Position numbers and translations under genes: made by a program. From Nitzschia sp. pyKryTriq1 (lineage: Eukaryota; Bacillariophyta; Bacillariophyceae; Bacillariales; Bacillariaceae): a DNA stretch of 64,000 nucleotides. Position 1 is the first letter of the stretch. Each line of letters begins with the position of its first letter. The notes under the pieces were generated by a model. The model was not told the origin of the DNA, did no database searches, and was given only the letters and a program-made list of their open reading frames with translations. The stretch lies in NCBI GenBank assembly GCA_956465555.1, contig OY101125.1, positions 1,366,501-1,430,500 on the forward strand. The letters run 5' to 3'. Below are positions 20,468 through 41,735 of the stretch, piece after piece.

Positions 20468-23020
20468 TTACAATTGCAAATCCATAATCAAATCGGGATC
20501 CAACATTTGAGCTTCCTCAAAAAAGGCTCGGTCGGAGACACCACTCGACTCGTCGTCTTCGTCGTCATTGTCATCCTCATCGACGTCTCGGCCGGCGGCC
20601 GCTCGCAGTGCCGCAAACGCCTGGAATCTCTCGACTCGTTCTGCTGGTGGCTCGGCCGCTAGTGCTATCGCCGGTTCTGGTTCACGACGCGGATGAAAAG
20701 GAGGATTTCGTTGTAGCATCCTAGCTGCAAGTTGCTCATCTCGGTGGGCGGCCATGCGTTCAAAAGCCATGCGTTGACGGACCCGATGGCGTTGGCGGCG
20801 TGCCACGGCACCGGGTGGAACAAAAGCATCCCGTTGTTGGGGGTGGTGTGGAGGATGAAGGAGTGGCTCTATATTGTTCCTGCCGCCCCCAAACCAAAAG
20901 GCATGATGAGGGTCCGGGTGGTCTTGTTCAACAATGATTCGACCCTCGACATCCTCGGGGAGACGGAAGTCCCGAGCTGCAGCAGTGGGTGCATTGGATC
21001 GTGCTCGGCAAGAGCTTGCGGAAGCAGAATTATTAGGCATCGCCAGATTGGCTTGGGCTCGGCGTAACATAGCCAGAGGCTGGCCGAGGGGAACTCCCAA
21101 ATATTCAGCAATGAGTCGCTTAAAGGCTTGTGAAGTCTCGACACCACGATCGAGCATGGGGAGCTGGCTTCGGCGTTGTGGAGGTAGATGTGGCCTGGCA
21201 ATAGCAATACCGCCAAGCACTTCCTGACAAAACGTTTTGTGAAGTTGTAGCTTTTCTCGAATTTGTGTTTGTAAGCGAGGAATATCAATACTGCCACCCA
21301 AGGAGCTAGCGACTGACATGGTGTGACTATTATTGCCTCCCATGTTGTTGTTGTGATTGGCCACCGCCATAACTTGAATGTCAAATTCTTGGCGCAAGGG
21401 AAGTGGGGCAAATCGCAAAATACGACCATCCATGGCGAGAGCTCTGAGTAAGAATTCTCGATTTCGCAGCAAGGCATCGCCGACCTTGTAAGTTTCGGAC
21501 CAATTGTATTTTGCTACCGCTAGAGGCAGTTCAAGATCTTCTTCGGTGTACGGCGGTTGCACCACCAAAAGGGGTTCAAAGGCTTCGAGAACGCGGCCTC
21601 CTCGTTGGAGCCAGGCCAAACATAGCTCTCGACTGCCTGCCCAAATATCGTCGGGAATGTGACCGGGTAAATACCGCAGATTCCTTGTCACTGACTTCTG
21701 GACTGCCCGAATCGGAATCTCTGGATTTTGCCGAATGATAGTGGAAGAAATCGTCTTCAGCGTATTCCACGCGCTCGTGGGCGTGATACTGACCAAAATG
21801 AGCTGAGGAGAGACTTGGAGACGGGGAGAGGCAATGGACAAGAGATTGGAATCTCTCTCAATAGCGACTTTCATGATTTCGATGTCATCGATGAATGGTT
21901 CCGAAGTAGGCAGACCCAGAAGTTCCGATAGAGAATCGACATTACCTCGTTGACAAAGGCTCAAGACGACATGGCGTTCCGATTTCAACGAAGGGCAATG
22001 CCCCAGTGCTTTGGAATGAATTTCGGGTGTCGAGTCTTCGGAAGTGATCGCTTGTCTCGCTAAACAAGTTTTCGCTTGCATGGAAGGCAACAATTGTAAA
22101 TATAACAAGGCATTGATTTGTAGGGCGCGCTGCAAAAAATTGAGATCGCCTCCAAAAGGATCTGGGACGTCTCGCAAGCACAAGCCATGCTTGAGCGCCT
22201 GTAACAGAAGCTCCGGATCTTGTTGGAGCTCGGGAGTAGCCAGTTTCCACATGGGCCCGCCTCCGGCCTTGGCGAGTACTACGTCTCGCATAAAGGCCTT
22301 GTTGCTGGTGAGCGCATCGCGGGTGGGTCCCGGAGGACAATATTCCAGAGCCCGGCCGTGCGATTGGCAAGCCTGCTGGACAATATGGGGATCTTCTTGC
22401 AGCCGCAAAGATGCATACTGTAGTTCGAGTCCGCCTAGAGATATCGCAGCTTGCACGACTTCGGGATCGTTGCAGAGGTCCTCCGTGCACTCTTGCAAGG
22501 AGCGAGGTATCCGCTGGCAGTATGCCATCATGACTTCCTTATCAGAGGTGAGACATCCCGGCACAAACAAGTGTCGTTCCTCGTACAAGATCTCAAAATC
22601 AGAACGTTGGCAAAAGGCCAAAACGACCTCTCTATCGAACCGCAGCCACTGCGGAAACGCCCGTTCAAAGTTGCTTTTGGGGGGCAGCGTTGGAGATTTC
22701 GTTAACGCTCGCAGAATAAATTCCCTATCCGTCTGCCAATTAGAAGGCAGCGACGTCCAGTGTTGCTTGGCGTCCTTACCAACTCGTTCAAGAGCTTGGA
22801 ACCGAACGTAACTGGATCCTTCTTCTTGCGGTTGCTGGGGAGCAGACGAATAAGCCGCCGGCTTTTGTGCATCAGAGGCACAAGAACCAGAAGGTTCGGA
22901 TGAGTCCACTGCAGCAGGAGCAGCTTCCAAGGGACGTGGAGCTGATTCTTCCATGTCGCTGTGGTCTCGAAGTTGGTTTCTACGAAAGTATCTCGGCAGC
23001 CGAGTGGATCGTCGCATCAT
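20468..23020 (-). CDS. DUF4116-repeat protein
   Basis: A single exon of 850 residues; the first ATG (a tandem ATG ATG) is at 23020. The open frame continues 22 codons further upstream but only from a TTG. Residues about 95-560 carry repeated units of about 45-50 residues with the pattern of a DxEVVxxAxxxxGxxLxxAxxxLxxD helix pair, for example NDPEVVQAAISLGGLELQYA and QDPELLLQALKHG. This is the DUF4116 type, common in protists and large DNA viruses and thought to be helical and protein-binding. The C-terminal third is Pro/Arg/Ala-rich and ends with an acidic stretch DEDDNDDEDDESS. Function unknown. Confidence 0.8.
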   Translation of the reverse strand: MMRRSTRLPRYFRRNQLRDHSDMEESAPRPLEAAPAAVDSSEPSGSCASDAQKPAAYSSAPQQPQEEGSSYVRFQALERVGKDAKQHWTSLPSNWQTDREFILRALTKSPTLPPKSNFERAFPQWLRFDREVVLAFCQRSDFEILYEERHLFVPGCLTSDKEVMMAYCQRIPRSLQECTEDLCNDPEVVQAAISLGGLELQYASLRLQEDPHIVQQACQSHGRALEYCPPGPTRDALTSNKAFMRDVVLAKAGGGPMWKLATPELQQDPELLLQALKHGLCLRDVPDPFGGDLNFLQRALQINALLYLQLLPSMQAKTCLARQAITSEDSTPEIHSKALGHCPSLKSERHVVLSLCQRGNVDSLSELLGLPTSEPFIDDIEIMKVAIERDSNLLSIASPRLQVSPQLILVSITPTSAWNTLKTISSTIIRQNPEIPIRAVQKSVTRNLRYLPGHIPDDIWAGSRELCLAWLQRGGRVLEAFEPLLVVQPPYTEEDLELPLAVAKYNWSETYKVGDALLRNREFLLRALAMDGRILRFAPLPLRQEFDIQVMAVANHNNNMGGNNSHTMSVASSLGGSIDIPRLQTQIREKLQLHKTFCQEVLGGIAIARPHLPPQRRSQLPMLDRGVETSQAFKRLIAEYLGVPLGQPLAMLRRAQANLAMPNNSASASSCRARSNAPTAAARDFRLPEDVEGRIIVEQDHPDPHHAFWFGGGRNNIEPLLHPPHHPQQRDAFVPPGAVARRQRHRVRQRMAFERMAAHRDEQLAARMLQRNPPFHPRREPEPAIALAAEPPAERVERFQAFAALRAAAGRDVDEDDNDDEDDESSGVSDRAFFEEAQMLDPDLIMDLQL

Positions 23021-23775
23021 TGAATTGTTGTTTTTAAAAGAAAGCAACAACAAACACAAGAAAAGCAAAACGCAACGGAGACACAAAATCTCGTCGCCGG
23101 GACAATGGTGGTGTTTTTTATTGGACCCGCCGTGACGCTTCTTCTCGTGTTCGTTTTGGGGATCGTTGCGTTGCTACGGTACGAGTACCGCCGGCTCAAG
23201 AAGTATGTAGACTACAGTACGAGAACAACTCTACTCTAAATGTTGCGGGTCAAACGGGTCAAATAAATATGGAATGATCCGTTGCAACGTCACGTTCGCC
23301 TGGTCTCACTACGAATGATTGATTATGTGATGATGATGATGATTCGATTCGTGGAGAGCCGACGCGGTGTTCGCCTTCGTTACGAAGGACGGACGCTAAA
23401 ATGAATGGTGGACAGACGGACGAGACCGGAACAAAGAACCAGATGCATGACGGGTGCCAGTACAGACGCGAAACAATCAGTCCGACATGCATGCCCGCAA
23501 TGGCAGATCCACAATCCAAATTGTAAGAGGTAGACTTCTTCCAGATGGGGTACAATATCTCTCTCTGTTCTCGTATTTGACTTCTTCGCTAATCTCTAGA
23601 GAGAGTAGAGTAACGCGTCTATTCCTATACGGTAGTGTGGCTGAATCATATCACCCTATTCTGTCGTTCTTTTAAAAGTGGTTTGCACCAACCGTGGTAT
23701 TATCATTCGAGGAGTGGACGAGTAGTAGCCGCCGCCGCCAACAAAAAATCAACGACAGGCACCGCGTACTAAAAC
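23021..23775. other. Intergenic between two minus-strand genes
   Basis: 5' flank of the DUF4116 gene and 3' flank of the CRAL-TRIO/DUF6824 gene. A short GAT triplet run lies at about 23328-23345. No gene seen. Confidence 0.5.
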
Positions 23776-26013
23776 CTATTCCCGTTGGCCCTCAGTAGCA
23801 GCACCACCATGATCGTTCCTGCGAGTGTAAGCCCTTTCGTCGATTGGCGTCGGAAGTGGCAGTTCGAGCTGATTTTGACCCCATACCAATCCTTGCGTAT
23901 TGAAACTGGCGCCCGGACCATTCAAACTTCTTGAAGTAGTACTGGTAGGAGATCCGAACAACATACCAAAGCAGGTAGGCGTGCAAGACGAAGAATCATC
24001 AATATCCTCCTTCTGATGACCCACCTTAAATCGTTTCTTTGTTCGGTCGCCAACAGCTTGCTGGTCTACTATTTCTCCAATGATACTTCTGGTGCCGACT
24101 ACGACCCGAGAATCGTCGAGTGTTTCTTGAGGATCTGGTATCGGTGCATTCGAAGAAGAAGACGAAGTCCCTGGAATATCAGAAGTGGATGGACTACTCC
24201 TAATGCCAGAGGAATTGTTCTTGGCACCGACCAAAGAAGACGAAGTGGTGGAAGTCGTACTGAAGGCTGTTGATGCCCTCCTGGCACTCCGTTGAGAGAT
24301 GAAAGCTTTTCCTGTCTTTATGCGAGCTTCTTGATCGCTCGCCACAACCCACCAGAAGCCTGCTGCTGCTGCTGCTGCTGCTTGGTCGTTATTGCTATTC
24401 TTCTTATTGTTGTTGTGGTTGTTGTTGTTGCTGCTGTCAGCCATGCTGGCATCTCGCTTCAAAAAGCGCCCCCCTTGTTCATTTTGAAGAAAGCGAACTA
24501 CACCCATGGTGATTTCGGCTTTTTGTCCGGGGGAAGTGGCCTTCGCATAGGCTTCCGCCATGGCCTCGACTGCCGCACGAAAGGCTTGATTGCCCGGATG
24601 TTTCATCAATATTTTCCCAGTTCCCAACAGCACATCTTGGTTGGTAGGCAAGTCGATCTTGTCCTTCAAAAACAGAAATGAGCTGACATGGCCTTCTTCC
24701 AGTTGGTCATTGTTGCCGCTGCTCTCATCACCCTTTAAGGTATCTTGGGTGTTGGACTGGACACGCGCCAAGTACTCATCCTTGTAGCGTCGCTTTTGAA
24801 TCCACCGGCCAAAATCCTTGGTCTTGACAACCCCCGAAGAGGACACTGGGATCGCATCTACTGGAATTCCATACGTCATTAGCTTGTATGAGACTTCTGT
24901 ATTGCTCCCGCGATGTAATTGGATTCCATACCGCATGTCCTTGGGACTCATGGCCATCATGAATCGGCCCAAAAACAGTTTCATTGTCGAATGATTGTCA
25001 TCAATGCACAAATGGGTGGAACTATAAGGCCGCATTGGTAGCCATTTCAAACTCGCAATCGTTTCTTGACGTAGCTCACTGTCGAAGTCGGGGTCTAGAT
25101 TCAATTTGTGATGCATCCACCAAACAATGGCCACGATTCCCCTCTTTTGAGTTTCTTCGTCGTCTTCGATCGCGGACATGATCATGTACCAAAAGCACTT
25201 GTACTGTACTTCGTAGGAGTAACAATTATCAAGCAAGCAAACAAGCAAGAAAGCAAGCAAGCAACGAGTGAAGAAGCAGAGGTGGTGTCAGACGAAGACG
25301 AAGTGAAAAATAAAAGTCAATACTACGTTGTCCCCCTCTACTATAGAAGCGATATGAAGCACACGTACATAGGAGAAGAGATCCGTGTAAAGTTTTGGTC
25401 CACATAGACTGGTATCCACCACCACCAGCCGTCCCGATCGATCTCGTCGTTGCAGTACTTGGAAGGCACCCGCTTTCAAGGCAGCGAGTTCCTTCTCGGA
25501 CAAATCCGTCAGTCGTAAAGCGCGAGTCAATGTAGGCCGCCCAAAAAAATGCACCTTCTTCTCGCAACATAACAGCATGCGGGTGGCTGCCTTGGTAGCG
25601 TCAAATCGTTCGGCGCGCAAGAACTGGAGTTGAAATCGAGCGCTCGTGACATAGATGCGTCCCACGGGGTCCAAGATAGCTTCTTGATACATGCACTGCT
25701 GCTCCTTGGGTATGTCAGCAATAGCGCTTTGTAACTCTTGTAACTTGAGTTGAAGAAAGGCAGGTGTCTCTTCTTGAATCGGGGCGACTCCATGAATCTC
25801 TTCGTAGGTCCGTTCGCGCTCTTCAAACGATAATCGATTCATTGCCCTCGCCTGGGCTCGATCAAAGTCCTTGGGAGTGGCGTTGGGGTCCTGGAGGATC
25901 GCCTCGAGGGAGACTTGATCGATGAGGGTACTTGTACTTTCAGTAGACCCAATGGCACGATGTACCCATTCTTGCATTTGATTCTTGGAGACGTCTGCTT
26001 CGTCCTCGTACAT
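23776..26013 (-). CDS. CRAL-TRIO-like lipid-binding region fused to DUF6824
   Basis: Two exons, 26013-25369 and 25203-23776, joined in phase 0 by an intron GTACGT...TACAG, giving 690 residues. The ATG is at 26013. Residues about 110-360 resemble the Sec14/CRAL-TRIO arrangement: a helical lead-in (FLRAERFDATKAATRML), a GAFQVLQRRDRSGRLVVVD strand region, then helices ending in IQKRRYKDEYL. Residues about 403-520 are a DUF6824 domain, with QDVLLGTG, KHPGNQAFR, GGRFLKRD and FWWVVASDQEAR. Asn and Ala runs interrupt it between FLKRD and FWWV. The tail is Ser/Thr-rich. DUF6824 is seen almost only in diatoms and relatives, often as a stand-alone domain. The lipid-transfer part is inferred from pattern, so I am less sure of it than of DUF6824. 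Confidence 0.8.
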
Positions 26014-28001: not shown

Positions 28002-28278
28002 CTACGAGTGTCTGTCGGCGGCTTCATTCATTCGGGCGTCGATTAACACGTTGACATCAATTCCGAGAAGTTGCGCATGCTTTTTCAACACTTTCATTTC
28101 TGATTTGCTGATAGGAGTAATAGCAAGATCTTTCTTCGGTTTTCCATCAAGGCCATCGAAATCGGGGAGAGAATCAATCGCCTCATCTGAGACTTGGTCC
28201 AAGGCAAAACTAAAGGGAAGGAGAGGCTGATCCTTTGTCTTCTCTTGTTCTGGCTCTTGTTCTAGTTGTTGCTGGTGA

Positions 28279-28309
<31 letters not shown>

Positions 28310-30912
28310 CTTGCTCTTGTTCTGGCTCTTGTTCTGGCTCGTGTTCTGGCTCTTGTTCTGGTTCTGGCCCTGGTTCTGGCTGTTGTTCTGGCCCTGGTTC
28401 TGGCTGTTGTTCTGGCTCGTGCTCAGCATTTGCTCGACACGACGCGGAGCTATTCGCAAATGATGAGCTCTTGAGCCCGTTGATTGATTCCCCGTCAATT
28501 GGTTCCGAAACTGCCGACTCATGGTCCTCTGGTTCTTCCTGAGTGGCTGGTAATGAGTCATCGCGCGACTCCATACCTATGCTTTCAACAAATCGCGACA
28601 CGGATTTACCGATAGATCCAAAGAACAATCTCAACACCGATGGATTGCACTGCAACTCAGAGCCGTCATTGCTAGAAACGGAGCTTTGATCATTTACAGA
28701 CGAGCTTTCCGATCCCGACCGTTCCAAAGTGGCTGATGTTAGAGGGACCTTTGATGGTGACAACGAAACTATCTTCTTCGATTCTTCCAGGGCACTCGAT
28801 TCCAAAACCACCGCACGAGTAGTGGCTGGTGTTGGTGAAGGAGTCGTCGCACGAGTGGTTAAAGTATTCGGGTGTGCTCGAGAATCCGGTCCCGCCGATA
28901 TGGGTTGACTGATCCAGTTTCGCAGGGGAACCCAATCTTGCTTTGGGAACCAGTCCCGAGACTCATTGCTCTCCGTCTCTACTATTTTTGGCTCAACAGA
29001 AGTAGCCTTAGATCGCGGAGCTGTCGTCGCTGAGCGTTTCTTGGGCGCTGCGTTTTCACTGTATTCGGATTCGACCGTATCATCCTCAGAAAAATCGGTC
29101 GAGTCGTAACTCAAGTCAAGACTCGTGTCTTCGTCATCAACAGCGGAATCGGTCCAGGGTAATGAGCTACTTGGAATAGGAGCACCACTGCGGGTGTTCA
29201 TTTCTGCTTTTCGTGTTGACTGCATTTTCGAATATGCGTTCCTTGGAAGATTCTCTGTTCGATACTTCGATAACTCAATCATCCTAGTCATCGCCTTCTT
29301 CTTTTGCTTAGCGCTTGACAAATTTGACCTTAGGATTCCAATCAAGTGAAGTCTCTCTACTTCGATACGTTCGAGTGGCTTGTTCATACGATTGCCACCG
29401 TAGTTCTCCGAAGGTTCAGCTTTGCCAGCAGCCATGTCAATTACAGGAGCTACCACAAAATCCATTGTATGTGCAAGAGCTTCTGCCATATCCAGGCTCC
29501 ACCCGGAATCAGCGATGGAATCACTTTCGTTAGTTGGGATTTTTGCCTCCGCTTCTCGAACAATTTTTCTGGTTTTTGTGTTTTGGGCTGCTGCGTTTTC
29601 TTCAGCGATTTCGGCCTCAGCTTGTTGGACCAAGACAGCGATGGAATCGGCATTCTTGGCAGAAACAGCCTTACCTGGTTTGGTCGCCAAGTCAGAGACT
29701 CTTGCCAGGACTGGTTGGGCGGTGTCGTCATCGGATTCTGTTTCCAATTGGGTATTCTGTTTCTTAGATGGGGACGGAGTCATCTCTTTTTTCGCACTGA
29801 GTTGTTCGAGAGCCATATTTTGCTTGCATGAGAAAGGAAGGAGGTCACAAGAAACTCAAAGATTGATATGGTGTATTTGAATTTACCTTTGGGAGTGTGG
29901 AAGAATGAAGTCTGGGTTCTCCTCATAGACCGAAACACGTTCATCTTCGGTTTGCCTCGTTTTCATGAAGAGGCCGCGTAAGAATTTCTTGTTTGCTTTC
30001 TTGTCTTTCAACTCTTTCGACGGGGCTTCCTTGGTAGCCTCCTTGCGTGTATTGCATTTTGAGGATGAAAAGCCACGGAATAGTTTGGATGCATTGCTTC
30101 GCTTCTCATCTCCAATAAACTCAGATAAATTCTCATCAAGTTTTGACTCGTCGATCACTGGAAAGGATACATCGGACAGATTTCTGTTGGAGTATGAAAC
30201 GTGTTAGATACTGGGTTTTTCTTTCCAGGGATAAGTACGTCTTCTCATGATCTTACCCTTTTGAACTCTCGTCGTCCGCGACTTTCCTTGGTTTTTCGTC
30301 GTGGCGTGCTTGTTTCATTCCTTCGTCCGTTTCGGAGACCGAATCATTATTGGCTTTTGTTCGCCGCCCGAAAATATTTTTTGTCTTTGTCTTTGCCACA
30401 AGTTGCACGGTGGCGTTTTTATTTTTCTCTTCAGTTGGACCTTCCTCTATATTTTCTTTTGGTGGAGTCTTCTTGTTTCTGCGCTTCTTCACTATGATGC
30501 GTGTGCATGGAATTCCCTCTGGGCTCACCATAGCCAGTGCCTCGACGCCTTCTTCGTCACATAAGAAGCTTTCATACCCTGCCATCGGAAGATCCCGCTT
30601 CTCGGATGTTGCATTTCTTCTTGTATTTTCGGTTGGTGCATGAGAGCTGATGATACGCGTGCCAGTTATTCCCTCTGGGCTCACGATAACCTGTGCCTCA
30701 ACCCCTCCTTCGTCGTTCGGTGCATCCCGTTCGTCCGCGTATCCCTCGTTTCTTCTTGTCTTTTCGTTGGACGATGAAGGACCTCTTTTATCCTTTGCTG
30801 GTGCGTCATTTCGATCTCGAACATTATTTTTTGCAACGAGGGCAGCAGGCTTGCCGCCACCGCCGAGTTTGATCGTCCCACCACGCCCATTGGCTTTGCC
30901 GATGGTCTTCAT
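28002..30912 (-). CDS. Low-complexity protein P1, VSPEGI-repeat family
   Basis: My model has three exons, 30912-30257, 30183-29887 and 29796-28002, with matched phases 2/2, giving 915 residues; the ATG at 30912 has ACC before it. Exon 1 holds two units of a repeat with core EGVEA...VSPEGI..TRII, separated by APTENTRRNATSEKRDLPMAG. The same units occur in P2 at 33.2-33.7 kb. Exon 3 is Ser/Glu-rich, has a run of EPEQ-type repeats and poly-Gln at about 28245-28430, and ends in a helix-like MKVLKKHAQLLGIDVNVLIDARMNE. No known domain is seen. The acceptor of exon 3 (CTCAG) is chosen by phase; 29816-28002 could instead be a separate gene with its own ATG. Basic and acidic blocks suggest an intrinsically disordered, perhaps nuclear, protein; this is inference. 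Confidence 0.62.
28245..28430. repeat. Coding 12-base minisatellite (EPEQ repeats) and CAG/CTG run
   Basis: On the plus strand the tract reads as repeats of GTTCTGGCTCTT and variants, with a TTGCTG run at about 28283-28312. In P1 it encodes Glu-Gln/Pro-Glu repeats next to poly-Gln. Length variation between alleles is expected. Confidence 0.75.
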
Positions 30913-31994
30913 GGTGCTGAATCGAGAAAGCTGGTCCGATAGAATTATGTTATAGAAACCTACACACCAATATGAGAGAGAGAGGATGTGAAGAGCAGTT
31001 TTATCTGGAGTATATACTTTAGTACGACCACTGATACATCATGATCTTTCGCCAGAATAGGGAGAAACCAATAATCAACAAATAGTAAAGGCGATAAAAG
31101 GTGGAGGAAGCAATGAAGTAGATACCGCCATGCGTTGGGAAGTGTTCTTCGGCCGCCAGAAGCCTTAAATAATATATATTATTTAGAAAGAAGTGAACGT
31201 TGGGAGCGTCTGCCCGCCTGCTTCTCGAGATTACATAGAGGTTCACTCATCGCTCATCAAAAATTCTGGGTACGAGAGTACTTATTGGTTGTGGTGTACC
31301 ACCAGTACCACCGTGTTACACAAGTACATACCGGTAGACCACTACTAGTACTAGAGGTACTAACTGTAATGAAGCACGTGCAAAAAAGAAGGAATTTCGA
31401 CCGGTCCGACTAAATTTTGCCTAGGATTTGACTACGTTGACTAAAATCATATCTTATCACGCAACCTTATTGTGCGCTCTTGTCCATTACTTTTGGTTCC
31501 CATAGACTACCGGTAACTACCGGTATTACTGTATGTACAGTGCCGGTACGAAGATGGTGCGCTTCTTTGTTCATTCAGATAGTACTCCTGCCCTTCACCG
31601 GCGGGCTGCTTACTCTCTAGCCCAAAGAAAAAACTATACATAGCAACAAGACACATACATGGGCATTCGTTATAAACATATAAATAACAGTAGGATGAGT
31701 ATTTGTTCCATCATTCTTCCTCAGCAGGGTACTTCTGCCATTGTTCAACGGCGGGCTGCTTACTCTAGCCCAAAGAAAAAACTATACATAGCAACAAGAC
31801 ACATAAACTTGCATTCGTTATAAACATATAAATAACAGTAGAATGAGTATTTGTTCCATCATTCTTCCTCAGCAGGGGGCTTTCTTCATTCTATAGTTTG
31901 TTCCATTGTTCGGTTATCTCCTCATGAGCAGGAAGACGCTGTCAGTCCTATGTCGATCTATTCTTCACGACGATCTGGGCTTTGAGGACTACGC
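30913..31994. other. Intergenic between P1 and P2
   Basis: The P1-proximal part (31040-31250) shares words with the region upstream of P2 (33760-33950), such as GATCTTTCGCCA, CCATGCGTT and GTGARCGTTGGGA, so promoter regions were duplicated with the genes. The P2-proximal part holds the direct repeat listed at 31595-31880. No gene seen. Confidence 0.6.
31595..31880. repeat. Tandem direct repeat, two copies of about 148 bases
   Basis: Both copies begin at GGCGGGCTGCTTACTCT, pass through AGCCCAAAGAAAAAACTATA and CAACAAGACACATA, and end with TTCCATCATTCTTCCTCAGC. They are nearly identical, so the duplication is recent. The array lies just 3' of P2. A diverged relative lies 3' of P3 at about 34410-34500. 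Confidence 0.85.
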
Positions 31995-33707
31995 TCACAG
32001 ATGTCCCAGATATCGTGGCACAATCACAATGTGGCAGCCTCCATATTCCGAGAGGAAATTAATTCCTTCGTCCACAATTCCGTCCCCACATCGCAAGAGC
32101 CCAGCAATGTGGGCGCCCTCGTAAACGTCGGGATACGCAGAGTCATACGACTCTGAGGGAGCCACCAACAAACTCCTCCCGTAGCCCTGCCAGTACGAAT
32201 CGTCAAAGGAATCTCGAGTTTCATCGTCCTCATGCTCTTCCTCCAGTCGCACAGGCTTTCCTCGGCGGCGGTGTGCATTAGGAGGTTCGGGGTATTCGCG
32301 CTCTTCGTGATAATCTTTTCCTCCGACATGTCTTGCCTCGAATTTCTCGTACTTCTGGAGCATTTCTTTTGTTGGCATATCCTCGTCTTCACCATCGATC
32401 ATATCGTACTTGACCGATGCTCGGGCTCTTCCGAGATTTCGAGAATGCGCGGACCCAGTGGACCCAGAGCTACTATGGTGAGCAGTCGGTCGACGACGAC
32501 GGCGGGGGGAGCTGGAGCGTGCCGAATGCGTTGAACTCGTCGTTTTTGCACGACGCGGAGCGGGACAAGTTGGGTACAAATTTTCTGCTTCCCCGTCGAT
32601 TGTCTCGAACTTGTCCGATCCTGGGTCAGTTCCAACAATATTTCGAGAATGCGTGGACCCACCACCAGTGAACCCAGTGCTACTATGAGCAGTTGGTCGA
32701 CGACGGCGGGGGGAGCTGGAGCGAGCCGAATACGTTGAACTCGTCGTTTTTGCACGACGCGGAGCGGGACAAGTTGGGTACAAATTTTCTGCTTCACCGT
32801 CGATTATCTCGAACTTATCCAATCCTCGGGCACTTCTAATATTTCGAGAATGCGTGGGCCGCCCAGTGCTACTAGTACTGTGAGAAGTCGGGTACAAAAT
32901 TTCTGCTTCGCCGTCGACTATCTCGAACTTGTCCGATCCTTGGGCACTTCCAATATTTCGAGAATGCGTGGACCCGGTGCTACTATGAACAGTCGGTCGG
33001 GGGGAGCCGGAGCGTGCCGAATGCGTTGGACTCGTTGCACGAACACTCTGTGCGGGAGGAGGAGAGTACGCGCGGGATAGTCTTTCACTCTCCTTGTTGT
33101 TGACTTGCATGAGAAGGAGTCAAGAACTGGAAGATGAGACTAATTTTCAAACAGCAGTCATGATTCGATCACTCTTCCGGGAAATCTTACCTATCCTCCC
33201 CAGCACCATGTTCGGACTCACGCACTTCGGGGACCGAATCATCTTTGGCTTTTGTTCTCTGCCGCCCAAAGAAAACTGTTGACCTTCTCTTTTTAATGTT
33301 TTGTTCGGCGGTGTTTCGATGTTGCTCTTTTGCGTTTGTGGCGTCTTCTTGGATGTACCTTTCTTCATTATGAGACGCGTGCATGGAATTCCCTCTGGGC
33401 TCACCATAGCCTGTGCCTCGACGCCTTCTTCGTCACATTCTTCACACCCTGCCATCGGAAGATCCCGCTTCTCGGATGTTGCATTTCTTCTTGTATTTTC
33501 GGTTGGTGCAAGAGAGCTGATGATACGCGTGCCCAGTATTCCCTCTGGGCTCACAATAGCTTGTGCCTCGACGCCTCCTTCGTCATTCGGTGCAGGACCT
33601 CTTGTTTTATCTCTTCTACCGAGGGCAGCAGGCTTGGTGCCGCTGAGTTTGCTCATCGTGGCAAGAGATTCACCACACCCATTCTCGGCGTTGCCGATGG
33701 TCTTCAT
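31995..33707 (-). CDS. Low-complexity protein P2, VSPEGI plus KFEIxDGE repeats and YGGCHIVIVP end
   Basis: Two exons, 33707-33191 and 33103-31995, joined in phase 1 by GTAAGA...GCAAG, giving 541 residues. The ATG at 33707 aligns with that of P1. Exon 1 holds two VSPEGI units like those of P1. Exon 2 holds four to five copies of a unit with HSRNI...SDKFEIVDGEAE followed by LYPTCPAPRRAK and a Ser/Arg stretch. Then come KFEARHVGGKDYHEEREYP, an acidic region with VAPSES, and the conserved end CGDGIVDEGINFLSEYGGCHIVIVP. The end is shared with P3. The two exons thus join the P1-type and P3-type halves in one gene. No known domain was recognised. The Ser/Arg content resembles RNA-linked proteins only loosely. 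Confidence 0.7.
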
Positions 33708-34592
33708 GGTGCCGAGGACTAGCAAGATAGTCCTATGGATGGAACTTTGGTAAACTTCCTGATAAGTGGGAGAGAAGATCTTTCGCCATAACAGATTGAT
33801 GGGTATGTACTACTGGTACATGCAATGAAGACTATACCTGTACAGCCATGCGTTAGAACGCATCCCTGGAAAACAATGTGAGCGTTGGGACGGAGAGGTC
33901 ACACCGAGCGAGTAGCAGGCTGGCAGGCTCCCCCACTGTTTATTGGTTCCCTGCCTGCCTGCTCGATGATGTTGCTGCACATGTGCCTGCCGATTCATGT
34001 GTATCGGCGCCATCGCGCATGACTACGTGCGTTGAGGCAAGGTTGAGGCCTATATGTTTCGGTGCGCGCCAAAAATAATGCGATGGCGTACTTTCAGCGT
34101 ATCAGATACCGGTATTACGTACTCGTAGAGTGCTACTACTACTAGTAGACTACCGGTAGTACTGCAATAGTAGTAGAAGAAAGAAAATTTTCGTAGCAAC
34201 ACGGACTTTCATTCGTTTGAAACATTCGGAACGACAAGCGTTGGTACCACTGCACTTCGTTCTTCTACTGTACGTCGCCATGCAAGATTACCATCGACTT
34301 TGAAGCTAGACTACTAGTACTACGAGATTTCGACACGAACTTAGCGGGGGAGGCAATATTAGTCAAAGTAGCAATAGTATGAAAATATAGTATGCTTTTG
34401 GCCTTCTGGGGCGGCCTGCTGAGTCCTCGAGACGAAAGTAAAGAAACTATTCGTAGTAGCAGATGGTGCAGAGACTTTCATTCATTAGAAACATTTTAAT
34501 CTAGGATTGTTAGTAAGGGTATTCGTTGCATGTTTCAGGAGGGAACCCTCTTTCTAAAATTGGGCAGTAGTACGAGACCCGTTTCTCGGTTG
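33708..34592. other. Intergenic between P2 and P3
   Basis: It holds the P2 5' flank (similar to the P1 5' flank), a TAC/TAG run near 34130-34165, and two phrases GGACTTTCATTCGTTTGAAACATT (about 34200) and AGACTTTCATTCATTAGAAACATT (about 34470). These resemble each other and the repeat 3' of P2. No gene seen. Confidence 0.55.
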
Positions 34593-35828
34593 TTATCCCA
34601 TGAAGTAGTCAGTCCAGTGGTGATCATCTGATTTGCGCGACGATCTGGAGGACTTTGAACGTCGCTTCTTGCTGGGAGTCTTGTCTCGTCGACTCCGCTC
34701 ACGGACGTTCCAGGATTCTTTATCGTCGTCGCCTTCACCATCATCATAGCTGGGCACGATCACAATATGGCAGCCTCCATAGTCGGACATGCAGTTGAAT
34801 CCTTCTTTTACCATTTCGTCGCCACATTGCATGAGCTCACCGTCGGCGTCGTCGTCGTAGTCGAGGTACCCAGAGTCATTCGACTCCGAGGGCGCCACCA
34901 CACTCTTCCTGTGCTGGCTCTTCCGCCTATCCGTCTTCTTTCCCTTTTGGTTTCGTCGTTTTTTCTCGTCCTCAATATATGATTCGTCAAAGGCTTCCCG
35001 AGTTTCATCGTCCCCGATCTCAAGTAGCACAGGCTTTCCTCGGCGGCGGCGGCGTGCATCAGGTGCGGGGTATTCGCGCTCTTCGCGATAATCTTTTCCT
35101 CCGACGAGTTTTGCCTCGAACTTCTCGAATTTCTTGAACCTTTCGATCAACCTTTTCTCGTCTTCACCGTCGACGATTTCGAATTTTTCCGATGCTCGAG
35201 CTCTTCCAATAGTTCGAGAATGCGTGGATCCAGTGGTAGAACCAGTCGATCGACGATGCCGGGAGCCAGAGCGTGCCGAATGTGCCGGACTCGTTGCTCG
35301 AGCGGTGGACTTTGATTCTCCTCGTCGCTGACTTGCACGAGAATGAGTCGGGCTGATAGCCCCGGCACGGCGACGATGAGACGAATGTTCTTTCACCTGT
35401 GGCACTGCCCGAGGACTCGTTGCACGCGGCGGCACTGCCCGAGGACTCGTTGCACGCGGCGGCCGTCGGTTTGCTGCAACGACGCGCTTTGTGTTGTTGG
35501 CTGGTGTCGCCTTGACGACGTTGGGAGATGCAACATACACCATCTTCTTGTTTCCACCACGGATTTTGGAGTCCATGACCAGGTCCTCGTCGAAACTTTG
35601 CGAGGCGGACCATTCTACAGCTTGCTGGGACTTGGTGCTGGCAGCGTTTCTGCTGACACCACGGCCGTTGGGAGATGGAACGTACACCACCTTCTTGTTT
35701 CCACGGACTTTGTTGGAGTCCATGACCATCAGGTCCTCTTCGAAACTTTGCGAGGCGGACCATTCTACAGCTTGCTCGGACTTGGTGGCAGCGTTTCTGC
35801 TGACACCACGGCCGCGTCCGAATACCAT
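34593..35828 (-). CDS. Low-complexity protein P3, YGGCHIVIVP family
   Basis: A single exon of 411 residues; the ATG at 35828 has CACC before it. Residues 1-100 hold two copies of a 48-residue unit (GRGVSRNAA...AVEWSASQSF..DL...NKKxVYVxSPN). A short Pro/Arg repeat RATSPRAVP follows, then one HSRTIGRARASEKFEIVDGEDE unit, then KFEAKLVGGKDYREEREYP, VAPSES and the C-terminal module CGDEMVKEGFNCMSDYGGCHIVIVP. After it comes a very basic Ser/Arg/Lys tail. Compared with P2 it lacks the VSPEGI exon and has a different N-terminus. No known domain. The repeated units look like recent in-gene duplications, so the protein is evolving fast. Confidence 0.75.
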   Translation of the reverse strand: MVFGRGRGVSRNAATKSEQAVEWSASQSFEEDLMVMDSNKVRGNKKVVYVPSPNGRGVSRNAASTKSQQAVEWSASQSFDEDLVMDSKIRGGNKKMVYVASPNVVKATPANNTKRVVAANRRPPRATSPRAVPPRATSPRAVPQVKEHSSHRRRAGAISPTHSRASQRRGESKSTARATSPAHSARSGSRHRRSTGSTTGSTHSRTIGRARASEKFEIVDGEDEKRLIERFKKFEKFEAKLVGGKDYREEREYPAPDARRRRRGKPVLLEIGDDETREAFDESYIEDEKKRRNQKGKKTDRRKSQHRKSVVAPSESNDSGYLDYDDDADGELMQCGDEMVKEGFNCMSDYGGCHIVIVPSYDDGEGDDDKESWNVRERSRRDKTPSKKRRSKSSRSSRKSDDHHWTDYFMG

Positions 35829-36855
35829 GGTGACTTTCTTTGACTTCGTCCAAAGGAACAGCAGAGCTAATATGTTATATGGTGTTGCAGATTTTCGTAT
35901 GGATGCGTCCGAGCAGGGGGAAATTGGGAAGCACCAGACGATGAAGATGAAAATGCCTTCGGACTTCGGAACCCATTATTTCCGAAACAGAAATCTTTGC
36001 TTGCCTCGCTCGTACCGCGGTGCGGTAAATAACGGTTGCGACATACCTTTTCCGTTGAGGGAGTTCGTTTAACGGCTAGAATGATATGCCTTGCACTTTT
36101 TGCTTAGATGGGGTTGTCGCTGAATGGACGTGCCTAACCATTGTTTTATGATATTTGCGGCCGTTGAGATCGCATCCCTATCGCTCATTCTTTTATTGAT
36201 GATTATGATGATTCGATTCGCCGAAGACAAACGACCAGTACGAATACGATACCATTACTATGAGAGTACTCGGAGTACGAAGTAGCGGAGAAGAATATCA
36301 TCTCTATAAACAAAATTATTTTTAGTAATTGCCTCTTTTCGTTTTCCATTTCTTTTACGCGTCCCTTAAAAAGAACATTTAAAGGAATTCTCGCACTTGC
36401 TTAGCAGCCAAGCAAGATGCAGCGTGCTTCGGCACCAAATAAATTTTACTTAGTACATACCAAATTGGCTGGCGGGCGCATTCCCTAGCTAGTCATTCAC
36501 TAGTGGTAATCGCAATGACACCAATGTGACACCCGCGACGATGATGCGAGATGCGAGCAGATGGGAGATGATGCAGCATGGGATGCACCGCTCTCCTCTT
36601 CCGCATTTTCCAATGCGCGGAGGGGGAAGCTACTGTATTCGTCAACAAAATACTCCACCATCACACTTCCGTATACCTGGTATACCTCAATCAATTCGAC
36701 AGGCTCGTTTATTATACTACAGTACGTTCTTAGAGCCTTGCTGCAAAAGGAATTTGGGCAACAGGCAGCTCCTGTGGAAGCAAAGCAGGGCAAAGCAAAG
36801 CAAAATTAAGCAAAGCAAAGCACGCAGCACAGCAAATATGCAATATTCGTAAAGG
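35829..36855. other. Intergenic between P3 and the DUF2786 gene
   Basis: Divergent promoter region. It holds an AGCAAAGCAAAGC run at 36780-36830 immediately before the DUF2786 gene. A 108-codon frame at 36526-36852 has no domain and is not called. Confidence 0.5.
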
Positions 36856-39312
36856 ATGAAGATACGCGTTACGGTGAGATACGAGTCTCCCAACGCAGTC
36901 GGCAAAATTGTTCGATTTGAGAATGACAATGAATCATCATCGTACCTCAATTTTCCTTCGCTATTGAGAAAGATTGCCTCCAAATTGGGATTTTTGGAGG
37001 ACGATTTCAAGTCAAAGGATCATCATGATGTTCATCATGATGATGACGATGATTGGATGACCAGTCATTATTCCCTCTTGCTCGGTGGAGGCAAGCAGGT
37101 TGTCGTTGAAGATACCAGCGAAATTGAACACGGGGACGATCTCATTTTGGTAAAGAAAAAGATTCCCGGAAATAATAATGCAAATAATGCAGCATCATCA
37201 GCTCCGACAACAACAACAACAACCGTTCGCTCGTCGAATAATCATCATCATCATCATGTTCATCATCATAGTCGTTTTCATCCTGGTGATGTTGTTATGG
37301 TGTCGTCGGATGATGCTGCCCCCGCCTTGTTGGAGGTCAAGAGCGAAGCCTGCGATGCTGTTGATGATGTCGCTTCGTCTCACAACATGCCACCAGCACC
37401 AGCCAATCATTCTTCAGCAACAGGGACGAGTTATTATTGTGGTGTGGGGGTGATGAAGCTGGAAGATAATACTAATACTCAGCATACTCATTCAAGTGGT
37501 GTCACTACTTGTATTCGAGACTCTGCCATTGTCGCCGATGCACCACCAGACAATATCGCATCTTGTTCTTCATCTACTGCTGCTGCTGCTGCTGCCGCTG
37601 GTGCTCGTCCTGTAGTAAGCCAGGAACCTTCGGCCCATGATGATGATGATGATGATGATGATAATGATGATTGTGAAGTGGAAGATGTGACAGCAAAACA
37701 ACAACAACAACAACAACAGCAAAAGTCCAAAAGTACGAATAACAGTAGTCAAAATCCAGAAATCATAGAAATAAGCTCAGACGACGGGAACGACGACGAC
37801 GACGACGACGAATCGATAGCGGATGGATCGGATGCCTGGGAGGAAGAGGAGGACGACGACGATGGAAGAGAAAAGTCGTCGTCGGAAGAAGAAGAAGTAG
37901 TAGTAGAAGACGAAGAAGAAAGTGAGTATTCTGATTCTGATATAAAAGAGGACTCGGATGAAGAACTGCCCGAAGAACCGAAACGAAAGAGTAACAAGAA
38001 TACTACTCCTGCAGAATCGCCACTCGAGGTAATCATGAAGGACAAGGATATTCCGGCAGCACCGGGGAAAGGTTCAGAGCAAAAGACGGAGGAGACGGAA
38101 AATCACGGATTGGAGGAGGTATCGACTCTTGTAGATGGAGCTGGTCGGAAGAAGGCTGATCGAGTGGTCAAGGATCGCATCATCAAGTTACTGAATACGG
38201 GTTTCCATGACCAGTCGAACGAAAACGAGGCCAAGAACGCGATGAAACTGGCTCAACGACTCATGAAGAAACACAATTTATCGCAAGCCCTGCTCTTGAA
38301 GGAACGGAATGAAAAGAATATGAAGGACCAAACTGTTGGTGGTGCAGACGACGAAATTCTGAAAGGCGGTTTGGTTCGAGTCAATATTTTCAATCGAAAA
38401 ACTCAAAAGCCAGCTCTCTTAGCCCGATGGATAAACAACCTCATGCATCCAGTGGCGACAAACTTTGACGTCAAATGTTACTACTCGGCACAGCGTGGTA
38501 TCAAATGTTCCGTTACTTTTTATGGGATATATACGAATGCACAGTTGGCTGGATATGCTTTTAAAGTCTCAGCGGAACGAATCGCTCAAATGGCAGCTGA
38601 ATACCAGCCCGACAAGAAACAAAGATGGGGCAGCATCAGCACAAAGAGTTCTCGTCTTAGTTATGCTCTGGGAATAGTGCAGGGGATCTCGAAGGAAGTG
38701 GATAGCAACATCAGACGAGCTGAAGAAGAGCGCTTGCAAAAACTAGCAAAGGCTCGTCTTGCCCAGTCCAAAGGTGAAGCCTATGCTGAAAGTGATGACG
38801 AGGGCGATCAAAAAATGGATGTAGACGATGATCATGATAACGACGGGCCAGGATTTGCTTCTGCCAATTCCAACGAGAAGGCTCCTTCAGGACCTGGTAG
38901 GGCGAAGAATGGTGACAAAGAACTCGATCCCACTGAGGACAGCGATACGATCTTCGATAAAGGAACTGCTGACGATGGAAAGGAGTCAAAACCTATGAGT
39001 ACATCAACTACGAGTACTGGCGCTACTAGTAAGAAGCCAAGCACAGTGTCCGGAGAGGCACTCGATCGTCGGATTGAGGAGCTCCAAAATGAAGAGCAAG
39101 CCGCCATCGTTTTGGTTAATCATAGCGAAAAGGTTGCCGAGAAGGTACTCAAGGACCGGAACATTAAGCTGAGCGCGGGGCGCAAGCGAAAGGCCATTGA
39201 TTTTGACCGTGCGTCCTACGATCAAGGCATCGAAGATGCAAAAGAAATTGACATCAATCAGCGCGCTATTCGTGACGAGGTGAAAGTCAAAAAGGAAAAG
39301 AAAGCATCGTAA
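36856..39312 (+). CDS. DUF2786 protein with ubiquitin-like N-terminus and acidic middle
   Basis: A single exon of 818 residues. Residues 1-105 look like a small beta-grasp or PB1-like module (MKIRVTVRYES, SLLRKIASKLGF, EDTSEIEHGDDLILVKKK), broken by a His/Asp insert. Residues 110-410 are low complexity with His, Asp, Glu and Gln runs. From about residue 432 comes the conserved part: DRIIKLLNTGFHD..NENEAKNAMKLAQRLMKKHNL is the DUF2786 signature. It is followed by a region of the DUF7168 kind (VRVNIFNR, WINNLMHPVATNFDVKCYY, YGIYTNAQLAGYAF, SYALGIVQGI). The C-terminus is basic with coiled-coil stretches (FDRASYDQGIEDAKEI). The DUF2786 function is not known. The acidic, Ser-rich middle suggests a nuclear protein; that is inference. 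Confidence 0.78.
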   Translation: MKIRVTVRYESPNAVGKIVRFENDNESSSYLNFPSLLRKIASKLGFLEDDFKSKDHHDVHHDDDDDWMTSHYSLLLGGGKQVVVEDTSEIEHGDDLILVKKKIPGNNNANNAASSAPTTTTTTVRSSNNHHHHHVHHHSRFHPGDVVMVSSDDAAPALLEVKSEACDAVDDVASSHNMPPAPANHSSATGTSYYCGVGVMKLEDNTNTQHTHSSGVTTCIRDSAIVADAPPDNIASCSSSTAAAAAAAGARPVVSQEPSAHDDDDDDDDNDDCEVEDVTAKQQQQQQQQKSKSTNNSSQNPEIIEISSDDGNDDDDDDESIADGSDAWEEEEDDDDGREKSSSEEEEVVVEDEEESEYSDSDIKEDSDEELPEEPKRKSNKNTTPAESPLEVIMKDKDIPAAPGKGSEQKTEETENHGLEEVSTLVDGAGRKKADRVVKDRIIKLLNTGFHDQSNENEAKNAMKLAQRLMKKHNLSQALLLKERNEKNMKDQTVGGADDEILKGGLVRVNIFNRKTQKPALLARWINNLMHPVATNFDVKCYYSAQRGIKCSVTFYGIYTNAQLAGYAFKVSAERIAQMAAEYQPDKKQRWGSISTKSSRLSYALGIVQGISKEVDSNIRRAEEERLQKLAKARLAQSKGEAYAESDDEGDQKMDVDDDHDNDGPGFASANSNEKAPSGPGRAKNGDKELDPTEDSDTIFDKGTADDGKESKPMSTSTTSTGATSKKPSTVSGEALDRRIEELQNEEQAAIVLVNHSEKVAEKVLKDRNIKLSAGRKRKAIDFDRASYDQGIEDAKEIDINQRAIRDEVKVKKEKKAS

Positions 39313-41170: not shown

Positions 41171-41348
41171 ATGCACTGTGCCTGCTTGCAGCAGTTCGAT
41201 CGGACAACACGCCATGATCACACTACAAACTTTACATAAACGATAGTAGATGCGCTATCAATCAGGCAGGATTTACGCACTGTAGCGGTTTCATCATCAT
41301 CTCCTCGTTCTCAGCTTGTGATACGTTTTCGTTTCTCTTCCTTCATAT

Positions 41349-41735
41349 ATGAATCATCAAAGGATTCCCGAGTTTCTCAGCGGCAGTGCGTATACATCAG
41401 GTGCGGGGTATTCGCGCTCGTGGCGATTGTCTCTTCATGCGACGAGTTTAGCCTCGAACATCTCGTATTCCTTGAACCTTTCGATTAACCTGTCCTCGTC
41501 TTCACCGTCGTTGCCTATCTCGAACTTCTCGTATTTCATCTTCATCCTCGACTATCTCGAACTTCTCCGATGCTCGAGCTCTTCCAATAGTTCGAGAATG
41601 CATCGAGCCAGCAGTGGCAGGAGGAGCAGTCGATCGACGATGCCGGGAGTCGGAATATGCGCCGAATGTGTTTGACGACGACTGCGACTCCTCAATGGAC
41701 TTGGATGATTCTCCTTCCGGCGGGCCAAATTTCAT
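41349..41735 (-). pseudogene. Relic of the P2/P3 family (P4)
   Basis: On the minus strand an open frame of 77 codons (41735-41502) contains SMHSRTIGRARASEKFEIVEDEDE, almost identical to P3. Downstream on the same strand, 41500-41349 still reads as the DRLIERFKEYE..FEAKLV and REYPAPD segments of P3 but with stops and frame changes. The conserved YGGCHIVIVP end is missing. This is a truncated, decayed copy about 6 kb from P3, and it marks the family as locally duplicating. Confidence 0.72.

Follow-up and report, generated by a model that had tools for sequence, protein, structure and literature searches.

A predicted chimeric gene and its junction intron at a probable tandem duplication in a diatom genome

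Fusions of the 5' end of one gene to the 3' end of a second, brought about by tandem duplication, have been described in Drosophila by Rogers and colleagues, who, in the parts of their paper drawn on here, report 76 chimeric genes from tandem duplication among 15 lines (PMC5460883). Ma and colleagues, in the portion of their work considered here, describe an intron that arose where a segment had been duplicated in tandem and that consists in part of exonic sequence (PMC4974935). By title, a chimeric gene with intronization or with a new splice site was absent among the matches listed in our literature searches, and the same holds for such a locus in the diatom literature, again by title among the matches listed. 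A study of exon shuffling and intronization in Schistosoma (PMC3434034) has reportedly been made, to go by its title. Below we set beside these descriptions a diatom locus at which one predicted gene, P2, is made up of parts found in its two neighbours.

Gene order, modules and the origin of P2

Three neighbouring genes, P3, P2 and P1, were modelled on the minus strand of the window (the whole stretch of 64,000 nucleotides analysed here, part of contig C11), all three models being predictions made from sequence only. Four modules were distinguished, with A for the N-terminal part of P3, B for the remainder of P3, C for exon 1 of P1, and D for exons 2 and 3 of P1. Along the direction of transcription the modules follow one another as AB (P3), CB (P2) and CD (P1), with P2 lying between P3 and P1 on the same strand as both, and drawing its 5' part from one neighbour (P1) and its 3' part from the other (P3). 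The gene models are as follows.

35828-34593, minus strand: P3, single exon, 411 aa; module A at about aa 1-165, module B at about aa 166-411
33191..33707, minus strand: P2 exon 1, module C with two VSPEGI units, homologous to P1 exon 1
33104..33190, minus strand: predicted junction intron of P2, 87 nt, GTAAGA...CATGCAAG
31995..33103, minus strand: P2 exon 2, a copy of module B with YGGCHIVIVP near its end
30257..30912, minus strand: P1 exon 1, module C with two VSPEGI units
29887..30183, minus strand: P1 exon 2, start of module D, placed on the basis of splice frame only
28002..29796, minus strand: P1 exon 3, module D with a predicted-helical region, an E/Q-rich tract and a conserved C-terminus

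P1 is thereby modelled as a three-exon gene of 915 codons, which corrects an earlier reading. Its introns measure 73 and 90 nt, and the introns of P1 and P2 start with GTAAGA or GTAAAT. For P1 intron 2 the acceptor CATGCAAG was rejected because it breaks the frame, and CAACTCAG was taken instead. Exon 3 of P1 also contains a repeat tract rich in E, Q and P (28242-28436). The N-terminal part of P3 holds a 49-codon repeat in two tandem copies (35519-35814) that lie 147 nt apart, are 88% identical and have a low synonymous divergence (dS 0.05 over 30 codons). Genes with domains of unknown function were found in the neighbourhood, at 20471-23173 (DUF4116), 23779-25287 (DUF6824) and 36853-39309 (DUF2786 and DUF7168), and both a tRNA scan and an Rfam scan of the window returned 0 hits. 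In the genome as a whole the light-harvesting family has 72 matches; one light-harvesting protein has fucoxanthin chlorophyll a/c-binding proteins as its nearest PDB relatives (best E 1.2e-105), a second matched, at E up to 1e-30, LHCI chains of a single entry only, and the host is accordingly taken to be a diatom.

The motifs VSPEGI, KFEIxDGE and YGGCHIVIVP, on which a first-pass annotation had based its description of the cluster, are present on the minus strand in the genes listed above. Exon 1 of P1 and exon 1 of P2 each contain two GVEAxxxVSPEGIxxTRxI units, and P2 and P3 have in common KFEIxDGE-type units, the segment VGGKDYxEEREYP and YGGCHIVIVP, with more HSRxI/KFEIxDGE units in P2 exon 2 than in P3. 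The proposal that P2 bridges two modules is borne out, as C is common to P2 and P1 and B to P2 and P3. In protein searches of the own genome (40.65 Mb, 20 contigs) both relationships are above chance, at E 7.3e-42 for P3 against P2 and E 4.3e-41 for P2 exon 1 against P1. All seven matches of the P3 query (P3 itself, P2 and a relic treated below) and all three of the P2 exon 1 query (itself and P1) are on C11, and a 58-residue piece containing the C-terminal motif, hereafter the ending, matched twice, in P3 and in P2. A degenerate DNA pattern for VSPEGI, written with TCN serine codons only, had one match on contig C9 and one control match, and was put down to chance.

A single duplication of the segment [B - spacer - C] predicts common 3' flanks for P3 and P2 and common 5' flanks for P2 and P1, and for no other pair. 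Flanks of 400 nt were compared with 500 dinucleotide shuffles for each pair; the P1 3' flank in this test takes in the P1 stop codon and the P2 3' flank the last base of the P2 stop. The matching stretches are given here.

34393..34561, minus strand: P3 3' flank, homologous to the P2 3' flank (0/500 shuffles)
31736..31898, minus strand: P2 3' flank, homologous to the P3 3' flank (0/500 shuffles)
33708..33828, minus strand: P2 5' flank, weakly similar to the P1 5' flank (4/500 shuffles)
30913..31034, minus strand: P1 5' flank, weakly similar to the P2 5' flank (4/500 shuffles)

The score of the 3' flanks of P3 and P2 (z 16.4) was not reached by any of the 500 shuffles. The 5' flanks of P2 and P1 match weakly, with 4 of 500 shuffles reaching the score (z 3.7) and 2 of 300 when 250 nt were taken. 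The control pairs look random, both for the 5' flanks (P3/P2, 171/500; P3/P1, 292/500) and for the 3' flanks (P2/P1, 254/500; P3/P1, 331/500), and the weak 5' match of P2 and P1 is distinct from both of its controls. Agreement between non-coding flanks is confined to the interior of the proposed duplicated unit, the 5' match being the weak one, and the whole spacers match as well (0/300 shuffles). The 3' flank of P2 also holds a 148-nt tandem duplication (31582-31882), whose copies are 91% or 94% identical in two analyses.

P2 is very probably a chimeric gene that originated in one tandem duplication which ignored gene boundaries. The ancestral order along transcription would have been P3 (A-B) followed by P1 (C-D), and the segment duplicated head to tail would have extended from within the P3 coding sequence, across the P3-P1 spacer and into the start of P1 intron 1. 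This one event, in which the 3' part of P3, the spacer and P1 exon 1 were copied in tandem, would have turned AB-CD into AB-CB-CD. At the new junction P1 exon 1, along with the sequence upstream of it, its start codon and its 5' splice site, would have come to lie in front of the 3' half of P3 and the P3 3' flank. The module order, the flank matches, and the intron/coding homology and phases described in the next section are counted as observations.

A paralogue of P1 elsewhere in the genome bears on which modules belonged together. With P1 exon 3 as query, four matches were obtained in the own genome, namely itself, two on contig C6 (53% identity over 233 residues and 59% over 46) and a weak one on contig C4 (E 0.87). 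The paralogue (C6 2497000-2506000) was read as two exons, a P1-like exon 1 before a D-like exon. Its exon 1 scores 67 against P1 exon 1, where the shuffle maximum is 66 (0/1000), and 5 and 12 of 1000 shuffles reach its scores against P1 exons 1+2 and P2 exon 1, respectively; no VSPEGI unit was found in this exon. Since a P1-like exon 1 precedes a D-like exon in the C6 paralogue, C belongs with D. The predicted-helical region of P1 is also kept there (TMDF...KAEPSENYGG...), possibly as a member of an unnamed family, and a single-sequence model of P1 places four longer predicted helices at 29142-29534 (mean pLDDT 60.1).

The junction of P2 and its predicted intron

The predicted junction intron of P2 is probably built in part from former coding sequence. 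Its 3' 45 nt (33148-33104) match P3 coding sequence, with none of 500 shuffles reaching the score and none of 300 when the adjoining exon is included, and the counterpart in P3 is the following stretch.

35332..35390, minus strand: part of the P3 coding sequence with homology to the 3' half of P2's intron, holding the acceptor-like CTCGTGCAAG

At the aligned site CTCGTGCAAG in P3 stands against CTCATGCAAG in P2. If P3 has the older form at the junction, as we infer, the AG pre-existed in coding sequence; it would then have become a 3' splice site, and the former piece of exon would have become intron. The direction from exon to intron is taken because C is tied to D in the C6 paralogue.

The donor of P2 would derive from P1 intron 1, of which only seven identical bases are left (GTAAGAT). 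Beyond these, the P2 intron does not resemble P1 intron 1 above chance, either as a whole (209/300 shuffles) or with the exon end (205/300), and its 5' 42 nt match neither the P1 intron (221/500) nor P3 coding sequence (389/500). Given that only GTAAGAT is common to the P1 intron and nothing in this part to P3 coding sequence, the breakpoint can be located no more closely than the interval from about 33183 to 33149.

The P1 donor is in phase 2 and the P3 acceptor-like site leaves phase 2, a match expected by chance in one case out of three, and P1 exon 1 joined to the sequence after the P3 acceptor-like AG reads through 465 codons with no internal stop. With these matching phases the fusion could have been in frame at birth. 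The P2 donor today is in phase 1, so the frames near the junction appear to have been shifted later, on both sides. P2 is presumably spliced and translated. We tentatively suggest, as a plausible reading that is nevertheless somewhat on the doubtful side, that one junction gave rise to a new gene and a new spliceosomal intron at once, in frame at birth, with the donor supplied by P1 and the acceptor half by P3 coding sequence, and that the protein was then kept by selection, a new promoter now standing in front of YGGCHIVIVP, a short, hydrophobic and lineage-specific binding motif.

Selection on P2, conserved blocks and alternative readings

Over whole alignments the two shared modules have similar synonymous divergences: C, with 155 codons, has dS 0.47, and B, with 136 codons, has 0.41. 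In ungapped blocks, which were picked by the analyst and where the picking of well-aligned blocks can lower dS, it is 0.20 for C (0.10-0.36; 84 codons) and 0.38 for B (0.22-0.58; 113 codons), values that are unequal with intervals that overlap. A later gene conversion of C is possible.

One alternative accepts the same duplication origin and departs from the reading above in doubting that P2 functions as a gene. In this view the duplication set P1 exon 1 next to a piece of B, so that P2 exon 2 would be dead or decaying sequence; read on its own, exon 1 does stop shortly past the donor. Several measurements agree with it: for the whole B tail dN/dS is 0.77 and the pN/pS interval (0.58-1.30) includes 1, that is, neutrality; the B tail shows no clear preference for gaps in multiples of three (5 of its 11 internal gaps at DNA level, compared with 4 of 7 in the flank); and another B copy has already become a relic. 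Single block sets give pN/pS intervals that take in 1 as well (B blocks 1-3, 0.36-1.39; B blocks 4+5, 0.25-1.09; C block 2 alone, 0.10-1.57). However, pN/pS falls below 1 for the pooled ungapped blocks of B (dN/dS 0.52, pN/pS 0.35-0.98) and for the ending (dN/dS 0.27, pN/pS 0.16-0.81), and the donor, acceptor and phase of P2 fit one another. Also, the 368 codons of P2 exon 2 are open, while at 0.19 substitutions per site a neutral simulation that ignores indels kept them so in only 1 of its 1500 runs; this test loses force when less divergence is assumed (43/1500 at 0.10 and 229/1500 at 0.05). We regard the dead fragment as unlikely. For C, the pooled ungapped blocks give dN/dS 0.33 with a 95% interval for pN/pS of 0.14-0.78. 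Selection on P2 is likely, though modest, and on the modules it looks weak to moderate.

The relic mentioned above had been claimed in the first-pass annotation, and it was found again.

41332..41706, minus strand: partial relic of the P3 B module, frame broken

It spans part of B, with stops and frame changes, and is closer to P3 (0/500 shuffles, z 73) than to P2 (0/500, z 35). Module A was not detected at the relic, and neither was the YGGCHIVIVP ending in the 400 nt beyond it (90/500 shuffles). Its 400-nt flanks do not match P3 (90 and 498 of 500 shuffles), nor does its 5' flank of 400 nt match P2 (196/500). The relic looks like a separate, truncated copy of P3.

A second alternative, that of the first-pass annotation, treats the cluster as a single family, expanded locally, whose docking motif is strongly selected, in keeping with the dN/dS of the ending and with YGGCHIVIVP being identical in P2 and P3. 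The first 165 residues of P3 are nevertheless dissimilar to P1 and to P2 exon 1 (334 and 166 of 1000 shuffles reach the score, respectively), and because of this we prefer to see in the cluster a pair of unrelated genes and their chimera, which makes a single family improbable. The ending is also no better kept in the protein than other B blocks (pN 0.166, compared with 0.163 for the KFE/VGGKDY/DDETR blocks). It belongs to a set of conserved blocks, and it does not close the P3 protein, where 52 residues come after YGGCHIVIVP, compared with six in P2. Its description as highly kept within disordered surroundings was an overstatement, the other blocks being equally kept and the P3 model being of low confidence. 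In that AlphaFold2 model, built from two sequences with P2 as the only relative, mean pLDDT is 39.8 and 340 of the 411 residues fall below 50, which from two sequences does not prove disorder. Helices are placed at 222-235 and 274-295, and residues 351-360, which hold the ending, have a mean pLDDT of 49 and no confident fold. The ending may have a docking role.

The least probable alternative takes the C-B gene as ancestral, with P1 and P3 derived by separate gains of D and A, and although P2 does hold both shared modules, this reading calls for two or more independent events, C6 carries a C-D-like order, and the flank pattern is the one that a single duplication would produce.

In keeping with the earlier statement that no family with this ending is known, Pfam has no match to the motifs or the ending and, at E up to 1, yields 0 families for P3, both exons of P2 and exons 1 and 2 of P1 (5 of 6 stretches). 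For P1 exon 3 a TFIIA match of 18 bits, below the cut-off of 36.2, was rejected as an effect of composition, the stretch including the E/Q-rich tract. Two PDB matches of P3, to ALB1 (E 0.032) and LPP2 (E 1.8), were likewise rejected, both lying over low-complexity sequence, and a PDB search with P1 exon 3 had 0 matches. No relative of P3 was found in a phage collection. In a collection of genome contigs the P3 and ending queries gave 43 and 119 pattern stretches, none of which was confirmed, and the same is true of the 2, 4, 9 and 17 stretches in viral contigs for P3, the ending, a P1 region and the VSPEGI units. Given that these collections consist of phages, viruses and prokaryotes, absence from them says little on other diatoms. 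YGGCHIVIVP was not found in the literature searched. It can be speculated, with considerable doubt, that P2 and P3 are disordered, low-complexity, Ser/Arg-rich intracellular scaffolds or adaptors that bind partners via short blocks (KFEIxDGE, VGGKDYxEEREYP and YGGCHIVIVP). P2 would set such P3-type blocks behind P1-like upstream sequence and VSPEGI units.

Comparison with known systems

Read as a chimera, P2 offers a readable case from a protist lineage of how a single mutation could yield a new gene together with a new intron, and both parent genes, P3 and P1, still adjoin it as controls. If spliced RNA exists, the locus would allow a compact test of in-frame exon shuffling by way of a switch from coding sequence to intron.

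P2 and P3 resemble SR-type proteins in their Ser/Arg-rich low-complexity stretches and differ from them in that P3, P2 exon 2 and P2 exon 1 have no RNA-recognition motif (0 Pfam families at E up to 1).

With the chimeric genes of Rogers and colleagues, as far as the parts of the paper used here describe them, P2 would have in common an origin by duplication, in which the 5' end of one gene is fused to the 3' end of its neighbour (PMC5460883). Those chimeras come from a population sample with RNA-seq, whereas P2 is older-looking (dS 0.2-0.5), belongs to a diatom and is known from sequence alone. In the main text of that paper the word 'splice' occurs 0 times and 'intron' once. The intron described by Ma and colleagues, in the portion of the paper considered, arose from a segment within one gene and took its donor from exon (PMC4974935), whereas in P2 two genes are joined, the acceptor would come from exon, and splicing is predicted. 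The two would be alike in having previously exonic sequence in the junction intron and splice signals that are partly inherited. The P2 case would combine a chimera by duplication with the gain of an intron at the junction, each part of which was already known.
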